Source of the DNA: Butyricimonas sp. Marseille-P3923
GTDB lineage: Bacteria; Bacteroidota; Bacteroidia; Bacteroidales; Marinifilaceae
Reading direction: 5' to 3'
Length of the DNA: 64,000 bases
NCBI RefSeq assembly: GCF_900184685.1
Contig: NZ_FXXL01000006.1
Coordinates: 1 to 64,000, forward strand
Positions 1 to 18,140 of this stretch are shown here, piece after piece; within the stretch, counting starts at the first letter, position 1, and each line of letters starts with the position of its first letter. The translations under genes were made by a program, and so were the position numbers. The notes under the pieces were generated by a model that saw only the letters and a program-made list of their open reading frames with translations, was not told where the DNA came from and made no database searches.

Positions 1-211
1 TAAAATCAAGACCATGCGGTCTTGAAGTATCATGGGGTGTTAGTCCACGTTTCCGCGGGTTATCTCCCGGTACGGGGTTGGTTGCACACGTGTTACTCAC
101 CCGTGCGCCGGTCGCCGGCGAAGTATTACTACTCCCCGCTGCCCCTCGACTTGCATGTGTTAAGCCTGTCGCTAGCGTTCATCCTGAGCCAGGATCAAAC
201 TCTTCATTGTA
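1..211 (-). rRNA. 16S ribosomal RNA, 5' end (partial)
   Basis: Read on the minus strand, this stretch contains the conserved start of bacterial 16S rRNA: AGAGTTTGATCCTGGCTCAG at about 201-182, followed by the GATGAACGCTAGCGACAGGC region and the GGGTGAGTAACACGTG segment. The mature 5' end lies near 211. The rest of the gene is beyond the left edge. The sequence is of Bacteroidetes type. It is transcribed leftward from two promoters at 379-411 and 552-584. Confidence 0.97.
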
Positions 212-378
212 AAATATTATTCAGAAATTTTGTTCTGGCAGGGTCATGTGTTCATGAATCACGACTCTCGTCGTTCTTCGATTCACGCTCGCTACGTTGT
301 TTTGTTCACGTCAATATTTTAAAGAACTCTTCTTCTCTCGTCTTCACCCTCGCCCTTTTCTCGAGGCGAAAGCGGATG

Positions 379-411
379 CAAAGATAAAACGTTTTTCCCT
401 TCCCTTCCAAA
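379..411 (-). promoter_or_regulatory. rrn promoter, proximal copy
   Basis: On the minus strand a TTTGG (-33 box, 411-407) is followed after exactly 20 bp by TATCTTTG (-7 box, 386-379). This matches the Bacteroidetes housekeeping promoter consensus. It points toward the 16S gene and lies about 170 bp upstream of its mature end. The layout matches the distal copy at 552-584. Confidence 0.85.
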
Positions 412-551
412 TCTTTTTCAAAGTTTTTTCAAACTTTTTTCGCGGGGTGTCGTTACAACTAACTTTTACCCCCCTCGCTTCATCTCTACAACATCTAAAG
501 AACTTCGCCAACCTCTCTCTTCACTCGCCCCCCCTTCCGGTTTAGCGGGTG

Positions 552-584
552 CAAAGATAACAGCATAAAATCCCCTTTTCCAAA
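552..584 (-). promoter_or_regulatory. rrn promoter, distal copy
   Basis: On the minus strand a TTTGG (584-580) is followed after 20 bp by TATCTTTG (559-552). Box sequences and spacing are identical to the proximal copy 173 bp downstream. Tandem promoters are usual for rRNA operons. Confidence 0.85.
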
Positions 585-821
585 TTTTTTACCCTCTTTT
601 TTTTAACTTTTTTACAAGACACTAGAAAACAAATATTTAAAAACAACACCACACGCCATTCCAAGTCTCAAAGTATTCCCGGTACTTGTCTTTTCAGGAA
701 ATTTCAATAAAATAGCTTCAGCCAACACGCGAATAAAATGGATTCTTCACTCCTTTTCATATCGATTTCATTTTTGACAAAAGAATGAAAATATCTTTTC
801 ACTATCCATTTTAGACTATCT

Positions 822-854
822 ATTTTAGATAATCTAAAGTAGATTATCTAAAAT
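822..854. repeat. 15-bp perfect palindrome with 3-base loop
   Basis: ATTTTAGATAATCTA (822-836) and its exact reverse complement (840-854) are separated by AAG. The palindrome lies between the last gene of the lysis cassette and the distal rrn promoter. It could end transcription of the cassette or serve as an operator. The stem is AT-rich and lacks the GC base of a classic terminator, so the role is open. Confidence 0.6.
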
Positions 855-932
855 ATTTCATCAATCCCTATTAAAAATAGGGAACCGGCCTACTTGACCG
901 ATCCCCCTCTTGGCATAGCAAAACGAAACAAA

Positions 933-1571
933 TTAGGATTCCCCTATCGTCAAGACTCTACTATCTGATGCTTGTCGCCCGTTTTTCGACGTGGCGAAGC
1001 AATACGCCTTCACGTTTTCGTTGTTCCAGTCCTCCGGTAACGCGTAACTCGTGCTACCACTTTCGCCGCGGTCCCGCAAGGTCACCAATCTCGCGCGCCC
1101 CAGTACCGTTTCGTAAAGCACCCCGTAAACCCTGTCATCCTGCAAAGCGAATCCATCTTCCTCTCCTTGCATCTCTTGCTCGAACGTGTACTTCTGGCTA
1201 CCCGTGCTGTACGCGACTGTGACCTTGGGAGGGTAAAGTATCCCCGCGGCCAGCTTCAACAGGTCGAGATCTACCGTTCCCACGTGTTTCTCGTCCACGT
1301 TTACCGCCCCCATGTTTCGCGCCACGAAGGCGTTCGAGGTCGTTCCGTTACCGATTCCCACGAATCCTTTCCGGATCACGGGTATAATCTTCCGGGACAA
1401 GGATACCAACGCTTTCATTCTCGCCCGTTGGTCAAGAATCTCCGGTGTCGGGTTATCTTTCCTTGAAAACACCTTCGCTTTGGCGATGTTTTTACTTCTC
1501 GTGTAACACAACGTGATGTTACCCACTGATCTTCTCGCTTTACCTAACAAATAAGAATTAAATTCTGCCAT
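933..1571 (-). CDS. DUF6266 family protein (copy B)
   Basis: This 212-residue protein has no signal peptide or membrane segment and resembles the DUF6266 family of Bacteroidetes, whose function is unknown. It starts MAEFNSYLLGKARRSVGN and carries an NPTPEILDQRARM segment near residue 40. It ends in a beta-rich part with VKAYCFATSKNGRQASDS. The protein at 2672-3301 has the same plan (NPNTEKQQAVRDRF near the N-terminus, VHVYCFFVSPS near the C-terminus), so the two look paralogous. It is the last gene of the cassette and is separated from the amidase gene by a tract of 7-bp repeats. That tract leaves open whether it shares the cassette transcript. Assignment rests on remembered family features. 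Confidence 0.75.
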   Translation of the reverse strand: MAEFNSYLLGKARRSVGNITLCYTRSKNIAKAKVFSRKDNPTPEILDQRARMKALVSLSRKIIPVIRKGFVGIGNGTTSNAFVARNMGAVNVDEKHVGTVDLDLLKLAAGILYPPKVTVAYSTGSQKYTFEQEMQGEEDGFALQDDRVYGVLYETVLGRARLVTLRDRGESGSTSYALPEDWNNENVKAYCFATSKNGRQASDSRVLTIGES

Positions 1572-1573
1572 AA

Positions 1574-1680
1574 TAATTGAAAATTAAAAGTTGAAAATTG
1601 AAAATGAAATCACTTGATTACAAAATCCACGAATCATAAATCATAAATCATAAATCATAAATCATAAATCATAAATCTAA
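1574..1680. repeat. Heptamer repeat tracts
   Basis: Two 7-bp periodic tracts sit between the amidase gene and the downstream DUF6266 gene. At 1574-1610 there are variants of AATTGAA. At 1632-1673 there are six exact tandem copies of AATCATA, followed by the variant AATCTAA, whose last bases overlap the stop codon of the amidase gene. Similar heptamers recur in many intergenic spaces of this window. Confidence 0.9.
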
Positions 1681-2270
1681 AATGCTTCCCTCAAGGCGAA
1701 TTCCAGCGCCAGTCCCGGGTCTATCTTCCGGTTCGTGATGTCCGAGTGCCCTACCACGTCGCGAATCGGGTAATTGGATTCCAGCAACTTGCACACCTCG
1801 ACCAACGTCCTCACCTGTACACTCGTGTAACGATGCCAGTATGTCAATTCCTCTCCCGAGCAATCGGCATGTACATCTTCCGGCTTCACTTTCCGTCCAC
1901 ACTCCGCCACGAACGTGTTCCCTTCCACGCGAAGTTTTCCAAGGTTATCCAATTCGATACCGATTGAATAATGATTCAACTCGGCACGTCCCGCGTACCA
2001 GCTTCTCCCCGCGTGCCACGCCTCTATATTAAACGGCACGAGTTGAACCAGTTCCCCTTCCCGCCCGATCACCAGATGTGCCGAAGCGGTCACGTCCGGT
2101 CTGGTCAAGAAAAGAGCCGATGACATCGGACTCGTTCCCCCGGTATAGTGCAAAACAATCATATCCGGGCCTACCAACTTGCGCGTGTTTTTCGCACATT
2201 GCAAGTGAACCACACCGTTCCCCGTCAACCGATGGTTGACGATTGAAATTTGAGAATTAAAAATCATCAT
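1677..2270 (-). CDS. N-acetylmuramoyl-L-alanine amidase (Amidase_2, endolysin-like)
   Basis: This predicted zinc amidase of 197 residues should cleave the bond between N-acetylmuramic acid and L-alanine in peptidoglycan. The first zinc ligand sits in VLHYTGGT (His41) and a WHAGRSWYAG motif follows (His86). The C-terminal GHSDITNRKIDPG motif (His175, then the Lys-x-Asp signature at 182-184) is typical of the T7 lysozyme/PGRP fold. No signal peptide is visible, as in phage endolysins that leave the cell through a holin. The gene lies 24 bp downstream of the holin-like gene. Single-domain amidases of this size are common in Bacteroidetes prophage remnants and toxin loci. Confidence 0.93.
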   Translation of the reverse strand: MMIFNSQISIVNHRLTGNGVVHLQCAKNTRKLVGPDMIVLHYTGGTSPMSSALFLTRPDVTASAHLVIGREGELVQLVPFNIEAWHAGRSWYAGRAELNHYSIGIELDNLGKLRVEGNTFVAECGRKVKPEDVHADCSGEELTYWHRYTSVQVRTLVEVCKLLESNYPIRDVVGHSDITNRKIDPGLALEFALREAF

Positions 2271-2294
2271 GTTTATACATTTAAAAATCTAAAA

Positions 2295-2675
2295 TTAACA
2301 TCGTTTTCGCGTGACAGCCTCTATGATTTTCTCCCCGCTTCTACCCACCACGTACCCGCCCAACCCGATTTCCAGCAAATCCCAGAAACGGGAGGTTTCC
2401 GCCAGAATCGGCAAGCTGGTGAACGTCCCGACAAGAATAATCACGGCAAATATCAACATCACGAGCGGGCGCCACGAGCGTTGCAGCCAGTTTCCCCGGG
2501 CTTCCTCCCCGACCACGGCAGCACTCGACTCCAAACGCTGTCGCTCGCGTTCGGCGATCACCCGCAGGATATCTGTTTCCAGCTTCTTTTTCTCCCGGGC
2601 GGGAAGCGTCAAGCGGTCGATCACCTCCCCGACCGAGTTGACGAGCCCCGCCACGGGTTTTCTTCCCCCGCTCAT
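2295..2675 (-). CDS. Holin-like membrane protein (Holin_3TMs-like)
   Basis: The protein has 126 residues. A charged, helical N-terminal half with PAREKKKLETDILRVIAERE (26-44) leads into SWRPL (67-71). Hydrophobic stretches follow at about 71-87 and 98-113, and then GGYVVGRSGEKIIEA. The WRP motif before the first membrane segment and the GGYxxGRxxEK end are characteristic of the 3TM holin superfamily (PF11351), whose members form inner-membrane lesions that let an endolysin reach the wall. The start codon overlaps the stop of the upstream DUF6266 gene (ATGA), indicating translational coupling. The amidase follows directly, giving a holin-endolysin pair. Confidence 0.85.
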   Translation of the reverse strand: MSGGRKPVAGLVNSVGEVIDRLTLPAREKKKLETDILRVIAERERQRLESSAAVVGEEARGNWLQRSWRPLVMLIFAVIILVGTFTSLPILAETSRFWDLLEIGLGGYVVGRSGEKIIEAVTRKRC

Positions 2676-3301
2676 ACCACCACGTGTTGAGAGTTAGAGA
2701 AAGCAGAAAACGACGGTGACACGAAAAAACAATACACGTGCACCGGCACATCTTTCACCCGGTATAGCGGGAACACGGCCATTCCCTCTCCTCGCGTGAC
2801 TTGCACTTCCTCTACCACTTCCGGCGAGAACGCGCGATCGCCTCGCAACAAGACAACCATCAAGCGATCATTCTGATCCAAGTAGGCACTATCGTCGGCA
2901 CCCGCCCAGCGAAGGGTTACCCGGCTCCCGTCGTCCACGGAAGCCGACAAGTCGTACACCCCGTCCCGGTTTCCCGTTGCAAGGCGTAAACCGTCATAAT
3001 CAACAATTTTACCCCGGTGATCGAACATTTTCAGGTTCTCCCTCATGAACAGGGCGAACCCCGTGAGTTTAGCATTCTTGCCGGAACGACGCCAAACCTC
3101 TTCCAAGGGTGTTTCTTTCAAACGCTGGTAAAAACGAACCGCCACCCGGAAGCGATCACGAACCGCCTGTTGTTTCTCCGTGTTCGGGTTGCTCACCGAT
3201 GCCGGTACCGCCCGGGCGTAATACTTGCCGTTCCGTCCGCTAAAAATCGTGTTACCGATTCGCCCTTTAATCTTGAAAATACTGCTTATTTCTGCCATCA
3301 T
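2672..3301 (-). CDS. DUF6266 family protein (copy A)
   Basis: This 209-residue protein has the same layout as the product of 933-1571. The N-terminal part has GRIGNTIFSGRNGKYYARA (about 13-31) and a SNPNTEKQQAVRDRFRVAV segment. The C-terminal beta-rich part ends VHVYCFFVSPSFSAFSNSQ. No signal peptide or membrane segment is seen. The gene is coupled on both sides by ATGA overlaps, upstream to the small ORF at 3298-3561 and downstream to the holin gene. The function of the family is unknown. Tight coupling to lysis genes suggests an accessory or regulatory role in lysis, or a released cargo. Confidence 0.8.
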   Translation of the reverse strand: MMAEISSIFKIKGRIGNTIFSGRNGKYYARAVPASVSNPNTEKQQAVRDRFRVAVRFYQRLKETPLEEVWRRSGKNAKLTGFALFMRENLKMFDHRGKIVDYDGLRLATGNRDGVYDLSASVDDGSRVTLRWAGADDSAYLDQNDRLMVVLLRGDRAFSPEVVEEVQVTRGEGMAVFPLYRVKDVPVHVYCFFVSPSFSAFSNSQHVVV

Positions 3302-3561
3302 CCTGCATTTTTAAGTGAATAAATTGTTTTTACTTGATTCCCGCCACGTGCAAAAAGCGGACGGGAAGAGATAAAGCCCGACCAAGGATACACGATCACG
3401 ATAACGACCGTGCCACGCTTGTCCGGCAAGATGTTGTACAATACCCGTGTTGGAGTTGTGCCGGAGTTGTGGCTTGTTCTCGCCCTTTCCCCGCCTCCTC
3501 TTCGCCTTGTTCTCCCCGGGTCCCTCTCTTGTTCTTTAGTCCTGTCAAATAATAATTCCAT
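3298..3561 (-). CDS. Small hypothetical protein, first gene of the lysis cassette
   Basis: This is a possible 87-residue protein starting MELLFDRTKEQERDPGRTRR. The N-terminal half is Arg-rich and a short hydrophobic run (TVVIVIVYPWSGF) follows near residues 51-63. I recognise no family. Two observations support translation. The stop overlaps the next start as ATGA, the same arrangement as at the DUF6266/holin junction. A well-formed promoter (TTG, 20 bp, TATTTTTG at 3616-3586) would start transcripts about 18 bases upstream of the ATG at 3561. The odd composition argues for caution, since it could be an untranslated leader. An upstream in-frame start is possible but falls inside the promoter. 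Confidence 0.45.
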   Translation of the reverse strand: MELLFDRTKEQERDPGRTRRRGGGERARTSHNSGTTPTRVLYNILPDKRGTVVIVIVYPWSGFISSRPLFARGGNQVKTIYSLKNAG

Positions 3562-3585
3562 ATCGTTTAATTTTTGATTACACGA

Positions 3586-3616
3586 CAAAAATAGTATGCC
3601 CACACACCACGCACAA
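3586..3616 (-). promoter_or_regulatory. Promoter of the lysis cassette
   Basis: On the minus strand TTG (3616-3614) is followed by a 20-bp spacer and TATTTTTG (3593-3586), a good match to the Bacteroidetes -33/-7 consensus. The expected start of transcription is near 3580, about 18 bases before the ATG at 3561. Confidence 0.7.
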
Positions 3617-3669
3617 CTAATTTATCCCGTACACCCGATCCACTGATCCCCCGTCCCGTTCAACTGACC

Positions 3670-3692
3670 GAACAGCCAAACCGGAACAGCCA
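3670..3692 (-). repeat. 9-bp direct repeat upstream of the cassette promoter
   Basis: On the minus strand TGGCTGTTC occurs twice (3692-3684 and 3678-3670), 14 bp apart start to start. The repeat is about 55 bp upstream of the cassette's -33 box and just downstream of the LytTR gene. LytTR regulators typically bind direct repeats, so this is a candidate operator. That role is an inference. Confidence 0.5.
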
Positions 3693-3738
3693 TTCCACGA
3701 AACGGTTTATAAATAATGTTACTTAAGCGTGTTCTTCT

Positions 3739-4155
3739 CTACTTGTGCAAGCCCTTCACGCTTCCTAAAAAATGGAAACGGGCGAGAAAGCCCTCCCGGT
3801 AGGGTTGTCCTAGCGGGATTTCCTGTTTGCCGATATAAATCGTGTTCCCCCGTACACGTTCCACGTGCTCCAAATTCACCATGTAACCGCGATGCACCCG
3901 CGTGAACAGTCCCGCCGGAAGACCTTTTTCGAGGGTTAACAGCGGGTGCCCAACAAGAATTTTCGGGCGATCCTTCAAGTGCATGCAACAATAATTACGA
4001 CTGGCTTCCAACCAAAGGATTTCCGCGTGAAAAACCCGGTCATAAGAATCTTTATTCCAAACGAAGAGCCGGTCTTTTTTGAAATCTATTATCTCCGCGA
4101 CAGCGTTTTCTGTCGCGGACGTGTTTCCCGTCCCCGGGATGTATCTGTTTTCCAT
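3739..4155 (-). CDS. LytTR-domain DNA-binding protein
   Basis: This 138-residue protein consists mainly of a LytTR DNA-binding domain (about 30-130). It shows the usual run of features: FHAEILWLEASRNYCCMHLK, then LTLEKGLPAGLFTRVHRGYMVNLEHV, then GNTIYIGKQEIPLGQPYREG. There is no receiver domain or membrane segment, so the signal is not obvious. I chose the ATG at 4155 because the longer frame would begin with TTG. The gene is on the same strand and 177 bp upstream of the lysis cassette. LytTR proteins often control autolysis, secretion or competence genes, which fits control of the neighbouring holin and amidase. No direct evidence of that link is visible. Confidence 0.9.
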   Translation of the reverse strand: MENRYIPGTGNTSATENAVAEIIDFKKDRLFVWNKDSYDRVFHAEILWLEASRNYCCMHLKDRPKILVGHPLLTLEKGLPAGLFTRVHRGYMVNLEHVERVRGNTIYIGKQEIPLGQPYREGFLARFHFLGSVKGLHK

Positions 4156-4215
4156 GATTATCAAGTGTTAGGTTTCATGAAATGACCATCCCGATAGATT
4201 TTATATATCTCCACG

Positions 4216-4289: not shown

Positions 4290-5372
4290 TTATTTTTTCT
4301 TTAACAACTCGTTGATTTTCTTTTGAAGAACTTTGTTTTCAAGATTTTTAGCAATGATGCGATTCTCCTCATCCAGCAATATCGTGTAAGGAAGCGCTTT
4401 CGCCCCGTAAAGATGAAAAACTCGAGCCTCCTGATCCAGACCGTTTTTCCAAAACATCCCGTCCGTGTTTATGGCCTTCATCCACGCCTGCTCGTTTTCA
4501 TCCCTCGACACGCTAATAATTTCCAATCCTTTCAGGTGGAAGCGCTGGTAAAGATTGAGGATATTCACGTTATCCCGACGGCAGACAGGATCATTCGATG
4601 TCCAAAAATGTAACAATTTCAACTTACCTTTTACCGAGTGAAGGGAAAGCGAGTCTCCTTGCAGGGAAGCCACCGTGAAATCCGGGGCAACGTTTCCCTC
4701 CTTGACGTTTTCCCACATGGATATCAACGTTGCAACTGCACGTCCCGGTACTGATGTTCTAGCATTTTTACCTAGCAAATCATACCTTACTTTTAATGTA
4801 TCCAATTCCAGTTGATACATATCGCTCGCCACGACATAAGCAACCGCATAAGTGTCAGCATATTTCTCCAACAACTCTTTTTCCTGTTCACGGGTAATTG
4901 CTATCGTTTCTTCAAACAAATTAGACAAAGACTGCATTTTCTCTTTATTATCAACTTGTTCTGCCAACTGATACTCTTTCTGTATACGTTCACATGTTTG
5001 CACAAGTAAGGTTTTAATTCGACTAAAATACCCCAAAATATCCTGTTGTTCACCTCCTTTTATTAACATCTCATTCTTTCTCACATTAATCATGAATTGA
5101 GTGTTTTCAAGTATCAGTGGTATCTCTACTTCCTCGCCTGTCATAACGATATTTACAGCCACCGCTCTCTCCACTTTTCCATGGAAAACAAAAGCACCAT
5201 TTTCAACTTTGGTTATAGCCAAGGTGTCCGGAATATCACCTTCATTAGTCAGCAACAAAAGAGAACCATTAGCAACACCGTCAATTTTCCCACTGATCCT
5301 ATAACCTTCTTGAGCTTTACAAATGACAGAACAAACTATCATTGTAAATAATGTTATAAACTTCTTCGTCAT
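4290..5372 (-). CDS. DUF4369/TlpA-like thioredoxin-fold protein with degenerate active site
   Basis: A 360-residue exported protein with a signal peptide (MTKKFITLFTMIVCSVICKAQ). A DUF4369-like N-terminal domain (YRISGKIDGVANGSLLLL) is followed by a helical middle and a C-terminal TlpA/AhpC-like thioredoxin fold (VAPDFTVASLQGDSLSL, then LKLLHFWTSNDPVCRRDN). Family members with reductase activity carry WCxxC. Here the first cysteine position holds Asp and only the second Cys remains, so classical thiol-disulfide exchange is unlikely. The cis-proline loop (ALPYTILLD) is kept. I chose the start at 5372 because it places the signal peptide at the N-terminus. A strong terminator upstream separates it from the SusCD operon. 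Confidence 0.88.
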   Translation of the reverse strand: MTKKFITLFTMIVCSVICKAQEGYRISGKIDGVANGSLLLLTNEGDIPDTLAITKVENGAFVFHGKVERAVAVNIVMTGEEVEIPLILENTQFMINVRKNEMLIKGGEQQDILGYFSRIKTLLVQTCERIQKEYQLAEQVDNKEKMQSLSNLFEETIAITREQEKELLEKYADTYAVAYVVASDMYQLELDTLKVRYDLLGKNARTSVPGRAVATLISMWENVKEGNVAPDFTVASLQGDSLSLHSVKGKLKLLHFWTSNDPVCRRDNVNILNLYQRFHLKGLEIISVSRDENEQAWMKAINTDGMFWKNGLDQEARVFHLYGAKALPYTILLDEENRIIAKNLENKVLQKKINELLKKK

Positions 5373-5441
5373 ATGATATATTGTAAACAAGAATCCCAGG
5401 AAGAAACTTCTGGGAGCTTCTTTTTCAAATTTACACGTATT

Positions 5442-5485
5442 AAAAAAAAGTAAAAATTCAAGGCTCCATGAAAAAGCCTTGAATT
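5442..5485 (-). terminator. Terminator of the SusC/SusD operon
   Basis: On the minus strand AATTCAAGGCT (5485-5475) pairs perfectly with AGCCTTGAATT (5465-5455) around a 9-base loop. The stem is followed by TTTTTAC and a run of eight T. It lies 12 bp past the stop of the last lipoprotein gene and is a strong intrinsic terminator. Confidence 0.88.
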
Positions 5486-5497
5486 CCCTAATCTACT

Positions 5498-7018
5498 TTA
5501 ATAAGCTACAATATCAGCAAGTTTCACCCTAGCAACAGAACCATTTACCCCATCAACTAAAGTTACTTTGATGAATTTCACACTCCGAGTTCCCTCGGCA
5601 ATCGGAAGAAGGGTGCTTTCCCCAGAACCTTGTCCCAAAGTATTCTCTTCCATAAAAGTAACATTCTGCCAACTTCTCTCGTCCACCGATGTTTTAATTT
5701 TAATCGAACTCGGTATATAATACTTCGAATCTCTATCTTTAGTCGGATCGTACAGAGCTTGTACGATTTTAATTCCATGTATCGGTTGTTCCTCTTTCAA
5801 AACAATAGTCAATTCATACGTCCGCACGACATCGGATTGCAAAGTGGACTCCCACCACGTGGCCATATCGTTATCCAACAGTTCCTCTAAATAAGACTCC
5901 TGATCTTCGATAGAACAAGTAATTGTATCTATCATCGACGGCAAGATGTAACTCAAATTATCTGGTAACTCGGTAGCACCTCTGTTTTCCAAAGAATTCA
6001 ATTCACTCTCATTACCAAAATAATGATCGTTATACCTCTCGATAACAACTCCCCGTAAATCTATCGCAGCGTTTAGCGCTTTTATACTCCGTTCCTCATC
6101 ATAAAGAATGCTTTTATCCTTAGTTGTTGGATAGATCCCCACGAGATAACGATTCTTACCGAGTATAATTTTCTTTAACTTGGAACAATACAAAACATCC
6201 TCGAATGTGGTCATATCATAGTCAAATTCCAACATAGTTACCGTGTCTATAAAATGTTCAAATTCAATCTTTTCGACATCTGATTTATCAGAAAAGCCAT
6301 AACGCATTTGTATCGCACTTTTAAAATCAGAAGTATAGATTCGAGTGTCTTCTAATTCAATAGGTTCAAATTTCAATGTATCCGGACATCCCTCCAACTT
6401 TCCTTCTCTCTCGATGTAAATTTTCTCACGTGTATCGACATTTTTCAAAATATCAAAACCTTTCTTGAATATCTCTTTTGTCAACGTCATTTGTTTCTTC
6501 CCTCCATTAAGGCTACTCGTGTAGTGAAGAGTTATATCAATAATATTATCGTTCCATGTATCCATAAAGAATACCAAATGCTCCCCGACTTTATAGAATT
6601 TCGTGATCGCTTTCGTGAATGTCCGCACGATCTCATGGTCTTCCGTGTAAGGTCGAGCATAATTTGTTATCACAAATGATTCATTACCATTTTTATCCAC
6701 GGCACATACCTCCAAAAAATATGTGCCATCAGCCAAATCAAGAAGCTCACACGAAGTTGTGCCTCTAGGTAACAAAGAATCCCGTTTCACGTCTTTCACT
6801 GTCCACGAAACCTTTACAGACTCAATGTCTGCATCGACACTATTTTTCCATTCTAAATGCAATCGTTTCCATCCCACCGTGACACTCAAATCCTTACACT
6901 TACCCAAATAACGGATTCTTCCGTTACCGGCGTCGTAAGTATCTTCAAGGCTTTCACCGCACCCTATCAATATCGCAGTGACAATCAATAAATTTATTAT
7001 ATATGATATTCTTCTCAT
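5498..7018 (-). CDS. DUF4998/discoidin-like surface lipoprotein
   Basis: A 506-residue predicted lipoprotein (MRRISYIINLLIVTAILIGC, Cys20 as lipidation site). The N-terminal region (about 20-215) resembles DUF4998, with GNGRIRYLGKCKDLSVTVGW and a fibronectin-like SVDADIESVKVSW part. The C-terminal region (about 360-506) is discoidin/F5-8C-like, with MATWWESTLQSDVV, PIHGIKIVQAL and VKFIKVTLVDG. Such proteins sit next to SusC/SusD pairs and probably bind the substrate at the cell surface. It is the last gene of the operon, 3 bp after the preceding lipoprotein gene. Family naming is from memory. The lipoprotein and operon calls are firm. Confidence 0.88.
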   Translation of the reverse strand: MRRISYIINLLIVTAILIGCGESLEDTYDAGNGRIRYLGKCKDLSVTVGWKRLHLEWKNSVDADIESVKVSWTVKDVKRDSLLPRGTTSCELLDLADGTYFLEVCAVDKNGNESFVITNYARPYTEDHEIVRTFTKAITKFYKVGEHLVFFMDTWNDNIIDITLHYTSSLNGGKKQMTLTKEIFKKGFDILKNVDTREKIYIEREGKLEGCPDTLKFEPIELEDTRIYTSDFKSAIQMRYGFSDKSDVEKIEFEHFIDTVTMLEFDYDMTTFEDVLYCSKLKKIILGKNRYLVGIYPTTKDKSILYDEERSIKALNAAIDLRGVVIERYNDHYFGNESELNSLENRGATELPDNLSYILPSMIDTITCSIEDQESYLEELLDNDMATWWESTLQSDVVRTYELTIVLKEEQPIHGIKIVQALYDPTKDRDSKYYIPSSIKIKTSVDERSWQNVTFMEENTLGQGSGESTLLPIAEGTRSVKFIKVTLVDGVNGSVARVKLADIVAY

Positions 7019-7021
7019 AAC

Positions 7022-8365
7022 TTATTTTTTTACGTAGACCTCTAACTCATGCATGGTAACATAATTTTTCACATTCGGGTAACTTGTCTGTATTTCCGAC
7101 ATCGAAGCATTAAACACCTCGTTGATTACCAATTTCAAATAACGATATTTTTGTCCCGAGTAAGCAAAAAAAACTTCCATGAAAGCAGGATCAGCCTTTT
7201 CTAGCTCTCTCGGATCCGAGATATAATCATAAGTTTCATCAAGGCAAGAAGCAGACCATCTATCTTTAAAATAAGTGTCTGGATCTTGTTCAAATTTACC
7301 TACTCTAATCCATGAATCATCATCCCCATTTTTATCATTGCTTGCATATACCGTCACTTTACACGGTAATTTATTGGCATAATAATACTCCCACAAATAG
7401 TAATTATATCCATACATAGTAAAATATGCATCAATATTTAACATTCCATAAATTCGGAGACTGGCAGGCACGATCTCTTCTCCCAAATCAATAATAAAAG
7501 GCTTACCTATCGCATTAGGTCCAGCAAGGAATGTATACGCCTCGTCAGTTTGGGAAGATAAAGCTTTCTCACCTCTCAAATCCCCATCAAAAAGGTATTC
7601 TATTCCCATTTTATCATCTTCATCATCAACCGAAAGATTGGCAATATCGAAAAAATTCTCACTTGTCAAGGCAAATTTTTTCTTTTCTAATGCTTCAATG
7701 TTTTCCCACACCTTCTGCCTCACGCGATAACCTTTATAATCTTCCGTGCGCAGGACAATCGTGTTAATAGCTGATTCCTGTTGTAACTGAAATACAAGAG
7801 TATCTCCACCTTTTGTTATCGGCAAAGTTTTCAACAATAATGTATCTGATTGTTTTGTCAGCGGATCTTCTCCCAAATATAGAACGTGGACAAAACCAGC
7901 AACATATTCAGGAGCCTTGTAAATAACCTGAAAGCCGCCCCACGAAGAAGAAACGTCTGCCCCGTCAAAAAAGGCGTAGGGAGCAGAATCATCCGTAGAA
8001 AATGTCACATCAATAGGTTCCGACTCCACGTTTTGGTTATTAACAAATGTCACCCGAGCGAGAACATTTTCTCTTGCCTCGTTGAACCCGTCCAAAACAA
8101 GTGAATCGCACCCGTAATCATTCACTTTCAACACCTCTTTTCCCCTGCAATCCCTGTAACGTACATTAATACCATATACCCCAGCGTTCGAGGGTAAAAC
8201 ATAACGCATTACTGCCCCTCCCGCAATCTTTTCAAAATTTACCTTGAAAGCATCTTCAGGCACGATAAAAACGTTATCATCTTCGTTTTTACACCCGAAG
8301 ATTCCCATGAATATAATCAACACTAGTAATTTATATTTCATAATCAAATGTATTATTTTATTCAT
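7022..8365 (-). CDS. DUF4959/DUF5126/DUF5000-like surface lipoprotein
   Basis: A 447-residue predicted lipoprotein with lipobox IFGC near residue 25. Three parts can be followed: an N-terminal Ig-like part (FEKIAGGAVMRYVLPSN, typical of DUF4959), a middle part (GGFQVIYKAPEYVAGFVHV, like DUF5126), and a C-terminal discoidin-like part (IEYLFDGDLRGEKAL, then FIIDLGEEIVPASLRIYG, like DUF5000). The family accompanies SusC/SusD pairs and likely helps bind substrate. The ATG at 8365 follows the SusD stop directly. An in-frame ATG at 8341 would give a shorter but still good lipoprotein signal, so the start is uncertain by eight residues. Confidence 0.88.
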   Translation of the reverse strand: MNKIIHLIMKYKLLVLIIFMGIFGCKNEDDNVFIVPEDAFKVNFEKIAGGAVMRYVLPSNAGVYGINVRYRDCRGKEVLKVNDYGCDSLVLDGFNEARENVLARVTFVNNQNVESEPIDVTFSTDDSAPYAFFDGADVSSSWGGFQVIYKAPEYVAGFVHVLYLGEDPLTKQSDTLLLKTLPITKGGDTLVFQLQQESAINTIVLRTEDYKGYRVRQKVWENIEALEKKKFALTSENFFDIANLSVDDEDDKMGIEYLFDGDLRGEKALSSQTDEAYTFLAGPNAIGKPFIIDLGEEIVPASLRIYGMLNIDAYFTMYGYNYYLWEYYYANKLPCKVTVYASNDKNGDDDSWIRVGKFEQDPDTYFKDRWSASCLDETYDYISDPRELEKADPAFMEVFFAYSGQKYRYLKLVINEVFNASMSEIQTSYPNVKNYVTMHELEVYVKK

Positions 8366-8366
8366 T

Positions 8367-10322
8367 TCACCAACCCAAATTCTGTATCACACTAGAAATC
8401 AATACTTCTTCCGATTGAATAGGATAGAGATAATCTCGTGGCACTGTAAATTTACACCCGCTCCACACTTCCACGGGACCTTCAAAATTATTGTAAAACT
8501 TTTGGGCTGATTCCCCAAGCACGTTCCATCCCATTTGTTTGCAATTCAATTCCTCGTGTGCTATTTTCCAACGACGAAGATTCCAATATCGTTGCCCCTC
8601 AAAAGCTAACTCTATATTGATTTCCCTACGAATAATATCACGCATACCTATCTTACTATCTACCCTTCCAGGATCTTTCGAGTAAGATTTCCATGCAGTC
8701 ACCACATCCACAATACCAGCACGTTCCCGCACTTTATTTAACGGGGCGTACACTTTTTCCTCGTTAGGAACTTCCAGATACTCGTTCCACGCTTCAGCCT
8801 GCATCAAATAGAGTTCTGCCATACGAATGACGGGCAAAGTTTGATTATCGGACACATTACCAGCATACCCTTTCAACGGCCATCTGGAATTAAGGTGCTT
8901 TTTTAACCAATAACCATTAATATTCTGATAATCATTGCTAGTGATAATATCGTATTGCGTACCAAAATCCTCGTCTTTATAAGCTTCTATCGTTAAATTA
9001 TCTGTCGACTTCGGTCCCAATTGCCATTTAAGCCGATCTGCCGCAATACAAGCATAAAAGCGAGGTTCCCTACGCAAATGCAGTTTCAGTATTTGAATTC
9101 CGGTAGGTACAACATCCTTGTACAAAGGGCTACTTTCCATTGCCATTTGATAACGACCATTATAATCCCACGTGTTGTCCAAATCTATAGGTAGCCCATG
9201 TTCCGTGTAGTACATTTCTACCATTTTCATCGAAGGTGCAAGACACCCAAATACCGCAGTCGACAGATAATTCGTTTTTTGTACCCTAGGCAAACACAAT
9301 GCATGAAAAGTAGCATTCCTGCTGCTTGCATCTTTCCATTCTAACAATACCTCCGAATTAGTGAACGCAGAAAGTACACTTCCTTCAATATCACCCATCG
9401 TATTTAACAATTCACTACCTCGTCCAGCCGTCGTATTATACAAGGGATGGGAAACCTCGCATATCATAATCGCACTATCGGCAGCTTCTGCTGCCAATTT
9501 CCACTTTTCATGATCATATTCCTCGCTAAAAAGTGTTTCTCCATTCTTTCCTTTAAAATTTGAATAATATTCGTTTCCATTGAAAAGGGGAGAAGCCGCA
9601 TAAAGTAAAACCCGGGCTTTAAGTGCCCATGCTGATTCTTTACTAAAAAAAGCAACACGCTCTGTCCCCCTATTCATAGCAAGAGGCAAATCTCGAATAG
9701 ATTCGTCAAGTAGGCGAACCATCTCGTTGAAACATGTATCTACATGAGCACGAGGTTGCTGCATGAGTGATATATCCACATCCACATCAATATTTCGAGG
9801 AACCAAAACAATCGGTCCGTAACGACGTACTAACTCGAAATAAGTATAAGCTTTTAATGCTTTGATCTCTGCAGCCCATTGACGTTTTTCCCAATCTTCC
9901 ATGTTATAAACGTTGTTAATATTTTCTAGAAAAATATTACAAGATCGAATGGTTTCATAAAAGGAAGTATAATGGTTAAATACTCCACCTTGATTCCAAA
10001 TATTTCCATAAGGTTTATGTGCCATTTGAGCTCCCTCTGCAATTTTAAATCCGGGGAAATTATACTCTCCTCCTTGATAAAAATTTCTCATATATTCACC
10101 AGAAACGAACTCATCCGCTCCCAAGTAAGCTTCATTTTCACTAAGACTAGACACTATTCCTATAACTTGAGTATATATTCCACGAAGCCAAGTATCTGCA
10201 TTCGCCCGTTGTTCAAAAACCGATTCCACGGTTTCAATATCTTTTTCCGGCACCATATCTAGATAATCACATCCATAGAATAGTAAAGCCATCCAAAGAA
10301 ATGTCGATATTACATGTTTCAT
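8367..10322 (-). CDS. SusD/RagB family nutrient-binding outer-membrane lipoprotein
   Basis: A 651-residue SusD-like lipoprotein with signal MKHVISTFLWMALLFYGC, a typical YLDMVPEKD sequence after the cysteine, and an N-terminal TPR-like region. The SusD C-terminal signature is present: NQTLPVIRMAELYLMQAEAW, INIELAFEGQRYWNLRRW and YLYPIQSEEVL. SusD proteins close over the SusC barrel and capture the substrate. The gene starts 19 bp after the susC-like gene, as usual for these pairs. No glycosidase is encoded nearby, so the substrate cannot be read from the locus. Confidence 0.97.
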   Translation of the reverse strand: MKHVISTFLWMALLFYGCDYLDMVPEKDIETVESVFEQRANADTWLRGIYTQVIGIVSSLSENEAYLGADEFVSGEYMRNFYQGGEYNFPGFKIAEGAQMAHKPYGNIWNQGGVFNHYTSFYETIRSCNIFLENINNVYNMEDWEKRQWAAEIKALKAYTYFELVRRYGPIVLVPRNIDVDVDISLMQQPRAHVDTCFNEMVRLLDESIRDLPLAMNRGTERVAFFSKESAWALKARVLLYAASPLFNGNEYYSNFKGKNGETLFSEEYDHEKWKLAAEAADSAIMICEVSHPLYNTTAGRGSELLNTMGDIEGSVLSAFTNSEVLLEWKDASSRNATFHALCLPRVQKTNYLSTAVFGCLAPSMKMVEMYYTEHGLPIDLDNTWDYNGRYQMAMESSPLYKDVVPTGIQILKLHLRREPRFYACIAADRLKWQLGPKSTDNLTIEAYKDEDFGTQYDIITSNDYQNINGYWLKKHLNSRWPLKGYAGNVSDNQTLPVIRMAELYLMQAEAWNEYLEVPNEEKVYAPLNKVRERAGIVDVVTAWKSYSKDPGRVDSKIGMRDIIRREINIELAFEGQRYWNLRRWKIAHEELNCKQMGWNVLGESAQKFYNNFEGPVEVWSGCKFTVPRDYLYPIQSEEVLISSVIQNLGW

Positions 10323-10341
10323 ATTCTAAACATTTAATAAA

Positions 10342-13300
10342 TTAAAAACTAACATTTACCCCTAACGAGAACGTACGTTGTATTGGGTAATTGAACCCAC
10401 TATTCCCCAACTCTACGTCCCACACTTTAAAGTTTGTGATCAAGAATGGATTATTGACACGTGCATAAAATTTCACATTTTGCATTCTTAACTTTGTTCT
10501 CAACGCACTCGGCAAATTATAAGCCAATTCTATCGATGTGCAACGCAAGAATCGACATTCACGCATAAAATAAGTACTTTTACGCTCTTCCACTCCTGAA
10601 CTCCAATCTTCTTGTGGATTATGAGTACTGATAGCATACGTGGAAAGACGCGGCCAAAAAGGATTATCCGTCATATTATCTTCACTCCAATGATCATCAT
10701 AAATGGCCTTTAACATGGCTTGTCCGCCGACAAAAGGATTGATCTGCATGGGATCCATAAAAAATGAACGTTTACCAGATCCTTGGAAAGCAAAACTAAA
10801 TTCCCAATTTTTATAATTCAAGAAACCGCTAAAACCGTAGATTACTCGAGGTGTTTCGGGAAAACCTATATAAGTGGCATCGTTCACGTCGATTTTTCCA
10901 TCTCCGTTAAGATCCCGGTAACGAATATCCCCTGGTTTAAGTTGACCGTCTTGCATCGGAGCATTATCAATTTCCGATTGCCCGCGGAATAAACCATCGG
11001 CAATATACCCCACGGCTTGCGAAATTTCATGCCCTTTCTTGCGTTGCCATTCTGGCTTATCTATTGCCTCTTCTATTTCCAAATAAATAGCCTTACTATA
11101 AGTAAACGTACCGTTAAGAATAACCCAAAAATCGGAAGAAAAAGCATGCTGAATTTTACCGGCAAGATCAATACCTCGGGAGCGAGCTTTACCGACATTC
11201 GCCAATTGATACTCCTCCAACCCCACTGTAGCCGGTACTGCAATCCGGTAGTCTAATATATTATGGCGTATCTCTTGATATATATCAGCCGTTACATCCA
11301 ATAATCCATCAAATAATTTTGTCTCAATTCCTAAATTCATTTGCTCTGCGACTTCCCACTTTATCTTCGTGTTCGGGTAAGAAGATAATTTATACCTATT
11401 AGTCGCATTTCCGTTAGGTCTCGGATCTGTTTCATTCTCTTTCTCAAGTACCGGAAGATGAGTGAAACGGGGAGATGAGATAATACCATCATTCCCTACT
11501 TGTCCCCATGAAAACCTGAATTTCAGGAAAGATAACCACTGGGCGGTATGGTTAGCTAAAAAATTCTCTTTGGAAGCCACCCATGCCATACCGATAGACG
11601 GAAAAAATCCCCACTGGTGATTTTTGTCAAAGCGTTCCGAGCCATTGTAACCAAAGCTACCTTCAAAAAAATATTTATCCCTAAAACCATATGTACCACG
11701 CATGGAAAGACTCATGTTGCGTTGAGGGATTCCCCCCAAGACACTACCACCGACATCATCCGTCGTTGTTTCTTGTGCATTGAACACTCCTGTCAAACTG
11801 GTTTGATGCTCTCCCCAAGCCGCCGAATGTAACGCACGAATCTCATAACTTAACTGAGTAGCTTGAGTCGAATTTTTACCTTTATAGTCTAAAGTTCTTC
11901 GAGCATCTTCTTCATTTAAAGCCACTAATGTATGTTTTCCTGTTTCAAAATCATAGTTCCCCAATGCATACATGAAAGGTTTGGTTTCATAAGAAACTGC
12001 ATAATATCCCTCTTTATTCAAAGATAAGCTGGCACGCAACTCTAAACCTTTCAATAAAGATGAAAGATTGTGCATATACTCCACCCTGCTGGTTGCCGAA
12101 TAACGACTACGATCCTTATACCCACTATGCAGACTCTTGTATGGATTGGTTGTTTCACTATTTATTCCTCCAAATCGCAAATGAGGCCAGGAATATTTTT
12201 CATCTCCCGGATACGTCGGGGCAAAATCCACCGGAGAAGCGTTAAAAGCCAAATAATAAGCTTCCGTCACGTCAGTTAACGGTCCATGATATTTATCCAA
12301 ATTAGCAGAAGCATTAACCAATAATCTAATTCCCGCCGACAAATCAATATTAATATTAGTACGGAAAGTAAAAGTATTACTTTTGATATTGCAATCAAAC
12401 TGATTTAATCTATCAGTTTTTAACATACCTTCGTCTTGATTATAATTGAAAGAAGCATAATATTGCACCATGCTCGACCCACCCCGCATGTTCAACCCCA
12501 TGTGGTGATTAACCGTATAATCTTTAAACAAAATGTCGTACCAATCATTAGCAGGATATACCCACGAGGGATACTTTCCAGAAGCAGTACGTTCGATACG
12601 CTCCACGCTATATTGAGGAGTTGCACTTGGATTTCGAGCTAAAAGAGCCTGGTTATACATTTTCATGTAAGTAACAGCATCTACAACTTCGATCTCTCGC
12701 GTAGGCATAGAGGCAATCGCCTCGTAACGTACAGAAGTATAAACAGAACCTTCTTCTCCTTTTTTAGTTTCAATAAGAATAACCCCATTCGCCCCACGAG
12801 CGCCATACATAGCCGTGGCAGAAGCATCTTTCAACACACTAAAACTCTCAATATCTTCTGGAGCAATACGAGATAAATCCAATTTAGAAGATTCCACCCC
12901 GTCAATCAAAATCAATGGATCAATATTTGCTCCGGTCTGGAATGAAGTGATACCCCGAATATAGAATTTCGTATTCATTTCGTCCTCAGTCAACGCTCCC
13001 GGAAGTCCTCCTGTCTGCCAAGCGATCATACCGGGAATCTTTCCAGCAAATTGTGTCGTCAAATCGCTACTCGAAGATTTTAAAGTTTTAGCATCAACAG
13101 TTGTGATAGAAGCAACCACACTTTCCTTTTTCTGTGTACCAAATGCAACGACTACCGTTTCATCCAATACCTGACTGTCTTCCTTCAATGTAATCCGAAG
13201 AGTGTCTTTAGCTGTTTTCTCGAAAAATTCCATCGTTTCCCTTTTAAATCCGATGAAAGAAAACTCCAAGGTCCCCTTCGCCATGGGCAATTCCAAAGCA

Positions 13301-13800
13301 AACCATCCTTTCTCGTTCGTTGATGTACCTAATGCCAATCCACTCACTTTTACCGTTACTCCCGGGATTGGCTGTTTTTGCGTGTCATACACGAACCCTT
13401 TCAAGCGAACTGATTTTTTCTCCGGCTCATCCGAACCCACCACAGGCTTAATAATAACCATTTTGTCAACATATTCCCACGTGAATCTCCTCCCTAGCAT
13501 TTGCCGTAATACCTCATCAACCTTCGCATTTTTCACGTTGAGCGAGATCGCTTGATTCACGTCCACCTCGTCAAAACTGTAAAAGAAATCCAGTTGTGTC
13601 TGCCGTTTCAGTTCAGAGATTACCTTGGTAAAAGGCATCCCCTCGACTTTCAGTGTCACCATCTGATCCTGTGCTCGCACGGACGCAGAAAGCGAAAAGA
13701 CAAAACCACACATCAATAAAAAAGTCAATTTCATAACCATTAAAATTTTCGCACGTGATTTTTTTAACGGGAACCACGTGCCCGTTCGTTTTTTTTTCAT
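10342..13800 (-). CDS. SusC/RagA family TonB-linked outer-membrane transporter with STN domain
   Basis: A TonB-dependent outer-membrane transporter of 1152 residues from the ATG at 13800. After a long signal (MKLTFLLMCGFVFSLSASVRAQ) comes a secretin/TonB N-terminal domain (STN, about 45-120). This is the mark of transporters that signal to an anti-sigma factor, and FecR is encoded just upstream. A carboxypeptidase-like domain follows (LKGFVYDTQKQPIPGVTVKV), then the plug (VVVAFGTQKKESVVASITTV, NTKFYIRGITSF, VLKDASATAMYGARGANGVI). The 22-strand barrel ends in FSLGVNVSF. A start at 13824 is possible, but it abuts a hairpin and gives an unusual N-terminus. Confidence 0.97.
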   Translation of the reverse strand: MKKKRTGTWFPLKKSRAKILMVMKLTFLLMCGFVFSLSASVRAQDQMVTLKVEGMPFTKVISELKRQTQLDFFYSFDEVDVNQAISLNVKNAKVDEVLRQMLGRRFTWEYVDKMVIIKPVVGSDEPEKKSVRLKGFVYDTQKQPIPGVTVKVSGLALGTSTNEKGWFALELPMAKGTLEFSFIGFKRETMEFFEKTAKDTLRITLKEDSQVLDETVVVAFGTQKKESVVASITTVDAKTLKSSSSDLTTQFAGKIPGMIAWQTGGLPGALTEDEMNTKFYIRGITSFQTGANIDPLILIDGVESSKLDLSRIAPEDIESFSVLKDASATAMYGARGANGVILIETKKGEEGSVYTSVRYEAIASMPTREIEVVDAVTYMKMYNQALLARNPSATPQYSVERIERTASGKYPSWVYPANDWYDILFKDYTVNHHMGLNMRGGSSMVQYYASFNYNQDEGMLKTDRLNQFDCNIKSNTFTFRTNINIDLSAGIRLLVNASANLDKYHGPLTDVTEAYYLAFNASPVDFAPTYPGDEKYSWPHLRFGGINSETTNPYKSLHSGYKDRSRYSATSRVEYMHNLSSLLKGLELRASLSLNKEGYYAVSYETKPFMYALGNYDFETGKHTLVALNEEDARRTLDYKGKNSTQATQLSYEIRALHSAAWGEHQTSLTGVFNAQETTTDDVGGSVLGGIPQRNMSLSMRGTYGFRDKYFFEGSFGYNGSERFDKNHQWGFFPSIGMAWVASKENFLANHTAQWLSFLKFRFSWGQVGNDGIISSPRFTHLPVLEKENETDPRPNGNATNRYKLSSYPNTKIKWEVAEQMNLGIETKLFDGLLDVTADIYQEIRHNILDYRIAVPATVGLEEYQLANVGKARSRGIDLAGKIQHAFSSDFWVILNGTFTYSKAIYLEIEEAIDKPEWQRKKGHEISQAVGYIADGLFRGQSEIDNAPMQDGQLKPGDIRYRDLNGDGKIDVNDATYIGFPETPRVIYGFSGFLNYKNWEFSFAFQGSGKRSFFMDPMQINPFVGGQAMLKAIYDDHWSEDNMTDNPFWPRLSTYAISTHNPQEDWSSGVEERKSTYFMRECRFLRCTSIELAYNLPSALRTKLRMQNVKFYARVNNPFLITNFKVWDVELGNSGFNYPIQRTFSLGVNVSF

Positions 13801-13825
13801 AGTTTTGTGATAAGAGTTAAACATT

Positions 13826-13895
13826 CATCCTCGGGAAATCGCAAGTTTCCCGGGATGGTTTCGCTACACCGGGAGTTGTTGCTGCAATTCCCGGT
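13826..13895 (-). promoter_or_regulatory. Two tandem stem-loops between fecR-like and susC-like genes
   Basis: On the minus strand ACCGGGA (13895-13889) pairs with TCCCGGT (13874-13868). Directly after it, CATCCCGGGAAA (13857-13846) pairs with TTTCCCGAGGATG (13838-13826), with one bulge. Neither stem is followed by a T run, so simple termination is unlikely. The position, just before the susC start, suggests an effect on mRNA stability, processing or attenuation. That is an inference. Confidence 0.6.
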
Positions 13896-13907
13896 TTATT
13901 TTTAGAT

Positions 13908-15065
13908 TCATCTATTCAGTTCAGTCACGACAACCGTCCTACCGTTCACGGTAAATTTCACCCGCGTGGTTTTCTCTATTATCGAGAATATCTCGTTTGC
14001 CGTGTACTCCTTCTTGATTACCCCGGCAAAGACAAAACGCTTCACACGCTCGGAAGCAAAGAAGAAATCAACATCATACCAACGCTGCAATTGCGCCGCA
14101 ATTTCTTCCAATGTCGCACCTTCCTCGAAATAGAATTTTCCGTCTACCCAAGCAGAAACTGCTGCCGCATCCACTTCTTTCGTCGAGATTCTACCTTCTT
14201 CCCACACGGCTTGCTGTCCGGGTGCAAGAATGGTTGACGCTCTATCTTTTCGATCGCTTACCCGCACCTTTCCGGATACCAACGTCGTACGAATCACTTC
14301 GTCCGGAGTATAAGCATTCACGTTAAACCGGGTACCCAGTACCCGCACATCCACTTCACCAACGTCAACGATAAAAGGTTTCCCGGCATCGGGTGCCACC
14401 TCGAAGAAGGCTTCTCCCTTAAGATACACTTTGCGTTCCTCACCCGAGAAGAATGTCGGGAAGCGAATTTCCGATTCGGAATTCAAGTAAACCCTAGAAC
14501 CGTCTGCCAGTGTCAACTGATACTCTCCTTTACGCGGGACTACAATCGTGTTGTATTCCACCTCGGTCGATTGCCCCTCTCCCTGTTCATAGGTCACGCT
14601 TCGAGCCGAATCCAAGCGAACACGCACGCCTCCTTTAGTTGTTAAAGTATCAACTTGGACGGATGCCAAATTTATCCGTTCTCCTTTCGCCATAATCAAC
14701 ACGGCTTGAGGACTGCCCGCCTCCAGTACCGGAACTTGTGCCACGGGAATCTCTTTTGTTTCCCGTAACGAGAACCATATCGTGCCACCCACGAATAACG
14801 GGATCATTACCGCCGCAACCCAACGCCACAACATTGCCACCCGACGCCGATTCTGACCTTCACCCCGGTATCCCTCGACAACTCTCCACATTTTCTCCCG
14901 GTCGAACACCACATCACTCCGCTCCATCATCCCCACTTCCCGCAACACGCCCCGCACCCTCGCGAAATCCGCATCCCGCCAAATTTTCCGCCACTCGGCA
15001 TCACCCGGCTTCACTCTCCCTTCCAGCACCGCTCGTAACCATTCTTTTTCGTCTTTTATGCTCAT
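13908..15065 (-). CDS. FecR family anti-sigma factor
   Basis: A 385-residue single-pass membrane protein. The cytoplasmic N-terminal part (about 1-78) should bind the ECF sigma factor. A membrane segment lies near 79-103 (AMLWRWVAAVMIPLFVGGTI). The periplasmic FecR domain follows (YNTIVVPRKGEYQLTLADGS, VYLNSESEIRFP, KVYLKGEAFFEVAPD, VLGTRFNVNAY). A C-terminal DUF4974-like domain (YFEEGATLEEIAAQLQRWYDVDF) should contact the STN domain of the transporter. The product fits the STN-bearing SusC encoded downstream. Its expected sigma partner (18198-18764) is unusually separated by two unrelated genes. Confidence 0.96.
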   Translation of the reverse strand: MSIKDEKEWLRAVLEGRVKPGDAEWRKIWRDADFARVRGVLREVGMMERSDVVFDREKMWRVVEGYRGEGQNRRRVAMLWRWVAAVMIPLFVGGTIWFSLRETKEIPVAQVPVLEAGSPQAVLIMAKGERINLASVQVDTLTTKGGVRVRLDSARSVTYEQGEGQSTEVEYNTIVVPRKGEYQLTLADGSRVYLNSESEIRFPTFFSGEERKVYLKGEAFFEVAPDAGKPFIVDVGEVDVRVLGTRFNVNAYTPDEVIRTTLVSGKVRVSDRKDRASTILAPGQQAVWEEGRISTKEVDAAAVSAWVDGKFYFEEGATLEEIAAQLQRWYDVDFFFASERVKRFVFAGVIKKEYTANEIFSIIEKTTRVKFTVNGRTVVVTELNR

Positions 15066-16750: not shown

Positions 16751-16780
16751 TTTTCCAATTTTATAAACATACCCAGAAAA

Positions 16781-18133: not shown

Positions 18134-18140
18134 TTGAACT

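Follow-up and report, generated by a model that had tools for sequence, protein, structure and literature searches.

LytSR-lrgAB joins a LytTR-domain regulator to a holin-like target. Type 10 secretion systems (T10SS), as set out in the parts of PMC10847048 used here, are holin, endolysin and spanin gene clusters outside phages, with a helix-turn-helix (HTH) regulator encoded directly upstream of the holin, and they release cargo without secretion signals through the lysis of a subpopulation. For LytTR regulatory systems (LRS), the parts of PMC6193735 used here describe sites made of 9-bp direct repeats, with a spacer mostly of 12 bp and sometimes of 11 or 13 bp, located 4-11 bp upstream of the -35 element. 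We studied a locus of Butyricimonas sp. Marseille-P3923 in which a LytTR gene stands upstream of a cassette with holin, amidase and two DUF6266 genes. It lies within a stretch of 64,000 nucleotides (NZ_FXXL01000006.1, positions 1 to 64,000; here called the window), which is the start of contig C2 in the 5.30-Mb genome. We propose tentatively, with chances that we put somewhat below even, that the cassette belongs to a domesticated module which is present in many copies and releases DUF6266 cargo through lysis, similar to T10SS and controlled by LytTR at some of its copies.

Open reading frame (ORF) calling together with Pfam and PHROG profile searches confirmed the six genes named in a preliminary description of this DNA, all of them in the minus strand. 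They would be transcribed in the order LytTR, a gap with the promoter, a small ORF, DUF6266a, holin, amidase and DUF6266b, followed by the 16S rRNA gene (Table 1). The two ATGA overlaps said to tie the first three cassette genes together are present, 4 bp each, at 3298-3301 (small ORF/DUF6266a) and 2672-2675 (DUF6266a/holin). The locus has an orthologue in Butyricimonas synergistica (L204), where LytTR, small ORF, DUF6266a, holin, amidase, DUF6266b and 16S are kept in that order. The dN/dS ratios between both loci (Nei-Gojobori) were 0.17 for LytTR, 0.13 for DUF6266a, 0.21 for the holin, 0.12 for DUF6266b and, with synonymous sites near saturation, 0.08 for the amidase; the five genes are under purifying selection.

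The preliminary description missed the multi-copy state of the locus: the window cassette is one of ten paralogues. Self-built profiles revealed in this genome 10 holins plus a broken holin fragment on contig C4, 10 amidases, 45 DUF6266 matches, some of them partial, and 15 LytTR matches, of which 12 are close relatives (E < 1e-40). Ten cassettes with holin, amidase and DUF6266 were established from the window plus 16 further stretches (window, L029, L031, L032, L034, L036, L038, L039, L040 and L041), and Amidase_2 adjoins the holin in all ten, one amidase having a nonsense codon. Their genes are ordered either DUF6266a-holin-amidase-DUF6266b or, in L031, L032 and L034, holin-amidase-DUF6266a-DUF6266b. 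Optional neighbours encode a MerR-like HTH protein, a small membrane protein and an AAA/PD-(D/E)XK protein. Eight of the ten have no in-frame stop within holin, amidase or DUF6266. Three own cassettes besides that of the window clearly have flanking DNA in common with loci of other genomes, namely L029/L213, L032/L232 and L040/L209 (78-84% over 4.4-7.6 kb); the L031/L210 flanks are only 63-66% alike, which may reflect merely similar Sus genes. DUF6266 is strongly expanded in the genome, and a/b pairs without lysis genes are frequent (e.g., L028, L030 and L033). A holin-like stretch interrupted by two stops comes after a DUF6266 gene at C4:15197-16005 (L382) and may be what is left of an eleventh cassette.

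The holin was found in all six genomes searched of the genus (own included), with 3 to 11 matches each, and in 18 of the 56 genomes of a family sample, where 29 had a DUF6266 match; in a phylum sample of 296 genomes (own included) DUF6266 was present in 21 and the holin in 10. The co-occurrence of DUF6266, holin and amidase genes that the preliminary description had proposed to look for was clear in 29 Butyricimonas/Odoribacter-type holin loci (L204-L232: B. synergistica, metagenome-assembled genomes (MAGs) of Butyricimonas and Odoribacter, and one MAG labelled Bacteroides sp.). All 29 contained DUF6266, at 2 to 1,039 bp from the holin, 27 had both DUF6266 types and 25 the amidase. Among the other kept holin loci (L233-L283, n = 51), one had DUF6266 and four an amidase of the cassette type. 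In L234 and L257 the neighbours look phage-like, going by blastp or inspection by eye. Neighbours of the holin-amidase pairs in L238 and L240, both from Prolixibacteraceae MAGs, resemble each other by eye.

The holin was 31-38% identical to proteins of eight phage records, where five of the places were annotated or labelled holin or were unannotated and the others hypothetical, and 37-49% identical to kept viral contigs. DUF6266 was present in none of the 80 viral holin loci (kept of 566) and none of the 80 viral amidase loci (kept of 81) examined, and the phage records searched contained no DUF6266 match. On a Bacteroidetes contig (L253:5276-11232), DUF6266 occurs together with a PF11351-like holin, an endolysin-like gene and two integrase-family (recombinase) genes that adjoin each other; inspection by eye showed no virion genes there. 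In two other Bacteroidota stretches (L344:10455-11833 and L359:5647-7437) a DUF6266 gene lies near a set of three genes, whose products are DUF5675, a small protein and one with an N-terminal motif that is similar by eye. The phage-like holin, the holin-amidase pairs without DUF6266 among non-viral-looking genes and the recombinases of L253 would fit an origin in which a phage lysis pair was captured by a chromosome or an element and joined to DUF6266.

The surroundings of the window cassette were inspected for virion genes. Pfam assigned nine genes at 4290-18785, upstream of the cassette, to thioredoxin/DUF4369, DUF4998, DUF4959, SusD, SusC, FecR, Schlafen/AlbA, AAA and ECF sigma families, with no virion or integrase gene; since the contig begins at the 16S rRNA gene, only 932 bases are visible downstream. 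A PHROG scan covered 37 of the 38 further window ORFs of at least 150 aa, a 1927-aa ORF being omitted, and no terminase, capsid, portal or integrase family was among the 25 listed of 45 PHROG families matched (E <= 1e-10); single members matched families labelled tail length tape measure protein and endolysin. The statement that no terminase, capsid or integrase gene is near held for the upstream side, among the PHROG families listed. The holin lies outside a phage in the window, as judged on the upstream side from Pfam and PHROG, and in the other cassettes as judged by eye. A plain prophage remnant is disfavoured by the lack of DUF6266 in viral loci, the dN/dS ratios, the positions common to species and the upstream gene content; the orthologue in B. 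synergistica, the dN/dS range of 0.08-0.21 and the absence of DUF6266 from both sets of viral loci support the maintained chromosomal lysis-gene module of the preliminary description. The rRNA operon that it placed beside this module is kept in B. synergistica, but eight of the ten own cassettes lie elsewhere or have no visible rRNA neighbour. At three contig ends (window 1-4164; L038, C3:1-12000; L380, C2:1398000-1413503) LytTR stands upstream of a 16S rRNA gene or of leader-like 16S DNA, and two of the three also carry a cassette. The leader-like DNA matches at 95% over 298 bp in L038 and at 74% over 518 bp in L380.

Seven of the 12 close LytTR relatives have a DUF6266 gene at most 2.3 kb downstream of them (window, L032, L034, L035, L038, L039 and L040). 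The other five (L377-L381) are all beside SusC/SusD-type operons, as at the window, these neighbours being judged by blastp to window genes or by eye, and four of them have cassette-leader-like DNA: L377, L378 and L380 resemble the L035 gap, and L381 the L032 gap. Since 11 of the 12 relatives therefore lie upstream of a DUF6266 gene or have leader-like DNA, LytTR appears to belong to the module, though many cassettes have none near. In the gaps between LytTR and cassette of nine loci with LytTR at most 700 bp upstream, we found direct repeats with a period of 21 bp: relative to dinucleotide shuffles, z was 10.8 at lag 21, 3.4 at lags 22 and 42 and at most 3.0 at all other lags. As lag 21 was chosen afterwards from 37 lags tried, and as the set includes related copies (the window with L204; L032 with L220 and L232), a test with one locus per group (6 loci) was made, and its lag-21 sum was reached by 0 of 500 shuffles. 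By single locus, the lag-21 score was reached by 0 of 100 shuffles in L032, by 6% in L034 and by 9% in L381. At group level, the repeats have the arrangement of LRS sites, i.e., 9-bp direct repeats with an 11-13-bp spacer upstream of a promoter. Upstream of the LytTR genes themselves no autoregulatory repeats were detected, the lag-21 score being reached by at least 18% of shuffles in 12 of 12. The LytTR protein showed no further Pfam domain and no hydrophobic segment in a hydropathy scan, and no co-transcribed membrane inhibitor was found beside it, the neighbours being a thioredoxin protein and the basic 87-aa ORF, whose hydrophobic stretch is weak. The LytTR link of the preliminary description is supported in part, by the group-level gap repeats and the relatives with DUF6266 or leader, but many cassettes lie far from any LytTR gene.

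A fibronectin-III-like domain is predicted at the C-terminal end of each DUF6266 protein. In the structure model of DUF6266a (pLDDT 89.3) residues 110-209 match the fibronectin type III fold structurally, and the model of DUF6266b (pLDDT 87.3) presented hairpins, helices and a fibronectin-III-like C-terminal domain. Although window DUF6266b alone is below the PF19781 threshold, 50 of 53 aligned homologues match this family at E <= 0.1. Neither the DUF6266 proteins nor the amidase had a hydrophobic N-terminus in the hydropathy scan. The viral structures that matched were for the most part tail proteins and fibronectin-III domains. The idea that DUF6266 is a phage structural family was discarded, the PHROG matches being weak and scattered (six families, at most 2 of 56 members each), and so was a DUF6266 candidate in viral contig L407 (30% over 63 residues), to which our own profiles gave no support. 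No credible solved-structure relative was found by sequence, and the literature library searched contained no paper on DUF6266. Among the seven own cassettes of one order, the three of the other order being omitted, pairwise identity averaged 39.8% in DUF6266a, 62.0% in the amidase, 69.4% in DUF6266b and 70.4% in the holin; with all ten included, the averages were 36.3, 55.4, 55.6 and 59.3%, respectively. The L036 amidase was entered as one piece of two. DUF6266a is the fastest-diverging cassette member among the paralogues, and steady lysis genes with one fast-changing partner fit the pattern expected of a variable cargo.

The release module proposed here would work as follows. The stand-alone LytTR protein would bind the tandem 9-bp repeats that precede the cassette promoter, and would switch on one operon of small ORF, DUF6266a, holin, amidase and DUF6266b. 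The DUF6266 pair, made along with holin and amidase, would build up in the cytoplasm until the holin opens the inner membrane and the amidase reaches the peptidoglycan; cells, probably a minority, would burst and free the DUF6266 proteins, whose fibronectin-III-like domains may bind something outside. By analogy, this would be type 10 secretion whose cargo genes sit within the lysis operon, with each repeat of the cassette bringing a different cargo (DUF6266a).

Table 1 Features at the left end of the window (bits and E values from profile searches)
Feature	Position	Strand	Evidence and remarks
16S rRNA gene, 5' end	1-210	-	Rfam RF00177, 126 bits; downstream neighbour of the cassette; also at L204
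Inverted repeat, 35 bp, possible terminator	821-855		Between cassette and rRNA leader; reverse-orientation blastn self-hit, 91%
DUF6266b, 212 aa	933-1571	-	PF19781, 19.0 bits, by itself under the 23.4 cut-off
Amidase_2, AmpD-like N-acetylmuramoyl-L-alanine amidase, 197 aa	1677-2270	-	PF01510, 89.3 bits; phrog_1794 (endolysin-type)
Holin, GTA_holin_3TM family, 126 aa	2295-2675	-	PF11351, 32.6 bits (cut-off 24.8); phrog_3427 holin, E 8.5e-21
DUF6266a, 209 aa	2672-3301	-	PF19781, 42.3 bits, above cut-off
Small ORF, 87 aa	3298-3561	-	Matches no family; its stop overlaps the DUF6266a start
Promoter element, TAnnTTTG type, TATTTTTG	3586-3593	-	Predicted cassette promoter
Direct repeat 2, GATCAGTGG, candidate LytTR half-site	3640-3648	-	Period-21 analysis; kept in L204
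Direct repeat 1, GGTCAGTTG, candidate LytTR half-site	3661-3669	-	12-bp spacer to repeat 2; kept in L204
LytTR DNA-binding protein, stand-alone	3739-4155 (ATG; to 4164 with TTG)	-	PF04397 at residues 47-127 of 141, 41.3 bits
Thioredoxin/DUF4369 protein, DUF4998, DUF4959, SusD, SusC/TonB receptor	4290-13824	-	Pfam; upstream neighbours

The promoter element was recognized by TAnnTTTG, the Bacteroidetes promoter consensus. In the amidase, H41, H175, K182 and D184 were unchanged across nine paralogues (alignment of nine of the ten own amidases), and presumably there are metal ligands among them. The holin presented a single strong hydrophobic segment, residues 72-90, in a 19-residue hydropathy scan. 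The N-terminal half of the small ORF is basic, and a weakly hydrophobic stretch (52-70) is at the same place in three loci; in L204 the ORF has identical length, start and frame, with pN 0.25 against pS 0.44. From these properties, it could be a membrane-active peptide or an antiholin. Its internal 11-bp repeats had raised the idea of pure regulatory DNA; we abandoned it, since no indel disrupts the frame in L204, weak though the constraint is.

A number of observations weigh against the release module. The chief doubts are that, of the genome's 45 DUF6266 matches (a set that includes fragments), 26 are not part of the ten cassettes and that in 4 of the 29 Butyricimonas/Odoribacter-type loci (L227, L229, L230 and L231) the holin is beside DUF6266 with the amidase absent. 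In 20 DUF6266 stretches taken from other families in the phylum sample there was no holin or amidase of the cassette type, and within the genome the L036 amidase carries its nonsense codon and the L039 holin has a shortened end. LytTR is at most 700 bp upstream in only three of the ten own cassettes (six within 2.3 kb) and in only six of the 29 other loci (nine within 3 kb; both lower bounds, several loci stopping at contig ends), and therefore a conserved order without LytTR, which the preliminary description had named as favouring a plain prophage remnant, is common. The loci carrying lag-21 repeats are partly related copies. The window repeat alone is modest, its 9 of 11 matches at lag 21 being reached by 2% of shuffles and other lags scoring 10 in the same gap, and it ends 19 bp from the -33-like element as compared with the 4-11 bp given in the parts of PMC6193735 used here. 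No lag-21 signal was seen singly in L035, L038, L039, L040 and L377-L380, the best lag of L205, L218 and L219 was 22, and 30 cassettes without LytTR within 700 bp gave z of 3.8 at lag 21, 3.7 at lag 24 and 3.6 at lag 33. Relaxed constraint among paralogues would equally give the divergence of DUF6266a, which between the window and L204 is constrained as strongly as the other genes. No spanin was recognized in the cassette ORF lists, for which no spanin-directed profile search was made.

Lysis itself might be the output, altruistic or competitive (suicide upon phage infection, fratricide, release of DNA or vesicles), with the DUF6266 proteins acting as regulators, timers or partners of holin and amidase instead of cargo. 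We consider this unlikely, though it has its merits: DUF6266 accompanies the holin in more loci than the amidase does (29/29 vs 25/29), DUF6266 pairs without lysis genes exist, as regulators or partners might, and the 4-bp overlap of DUF6266a and holin suggests coupled synthesis. A direct holin partner is ill suited by the divergence of DUF6266a beside a steady holin, and no PADLOC model matches holin or DUF6266 at E <= 1. An anti-phage defence system recognizable by PADLOC was rejected, the amidase receiving only weak CARF/Csx1 matches; among the neighbours of other cassettes, an AAA/nuclease protein had a Cas4-like match (2.4e-4) and an HTH protein matched mads_1 mad1 (1.5e-7).

Peptidoglycan could also be remodelled without cell death, if the holin passed little amidase for the insertion or release of large surface structures and LytTR tied this activity to SusC/SusD operons. 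That all five LytTR genes without a cassette are beside SusC/SusD-type operons, and the window copy likewise, speaks for it; four of the five retain cassette-leader-like DNA, and the Sus setting may therefore just mark a former module site. We find this explanation quite improbable. Similarly little credence goes to the view that a formerly mobile element or prophage lysis module spread and left copies which are now drifting and decaying. Signs of decay are the nonsense codon of L036, the L035 fusion of an HTH start with the terminal part of the small membrane gene, which looks as though the intervening genes had been deleted, the leaders without cassette in L377, L378, L380 and L381 and the C4 DUF6266 gene with its broken holin stretch, and in L253 DUF6266, holin and endolysin-like gene lie near two recombinases. 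Drift is contradicted by the dN/dS ratios of the window, the positions common to species, the eight of ten own cassettes without in-frame stops and the absence of DUF6266 from the viral loci examined.

Extended to the whole group, the release module would mean that Butyricimonas/Odoribacter-type bacteria carry many paralogous, diversified lytic secretion operons per cell, that every operon encodes a DUF6266 cargo of its own and some also a LytTR switch, and that a few cells burst and deliver fibronectin-III-type binders; we hold this wider statement to be on the doubtful side. No paper on multi-copy lytic secretion operons of Bacteroidota was found, as judged by title, in the literature searched. 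If true, protein release by lysis would no longer be a rarity confined to a few enterobacteria but routine and multi-copy in one group of Bacteroidota, the DUF6266 family would gain a testable role, and a Bacteroidota LytTR protein would be given a concrete promoter with defined candidate sites.

The known systems resemble this locus in different parts. Phage PF11351 holin/endolysin pairs share with it the holin family (phrog_3427) and the endolysin-type amidase (phrog_1794), whereas the cassette has no virion genes in 14.6 kb upstream (Pfam), is bordered by DUF6266 on both sides, and is chromosomal and orthologous between species. Pairs from Prolixibacteraceae, Reichenbachiella and Flavobacteriales (L237, L238, L240 and L241) are alike in that the holin adjoins the amidase among non-viral-looking genes (by eye), but they have no DUF6266 or LytTR match and occur as one pair per stretch. 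With LRS the locus has in common a LytTR-domain regulator and direct repeats of the published period; it differs in that no membrane inhibitor or receiver domain and no repeats upstream of the LytTR gene were found, in its target, a phage-type holin/amidase operon, and in a repeat that is farther from the promoter than in the parts of PMC6193735 used here. The module was not assigned to T10SS, because no spanin was recognized and lysis is a prediction, and it is unlike these systems in having LytTR in place of RoeA or ChiR, an amidase as the hydrolase, putative cargo encoded within the operon and up to ten diverged copies per genome. As in YenLC of Yersinia entomophaga and ChiWXYZ of Serratia marcescens, a holin and a peptidoglycan hydrolase are encoded outside a phage, and the window has a DNA-binding regulator upstream and putative cargo without signal sequence. 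Diversified lytic secretion operons of this kind would give the Bacteroidota their own equivalent of type 10 secretion, possibly one that lacks spanins.

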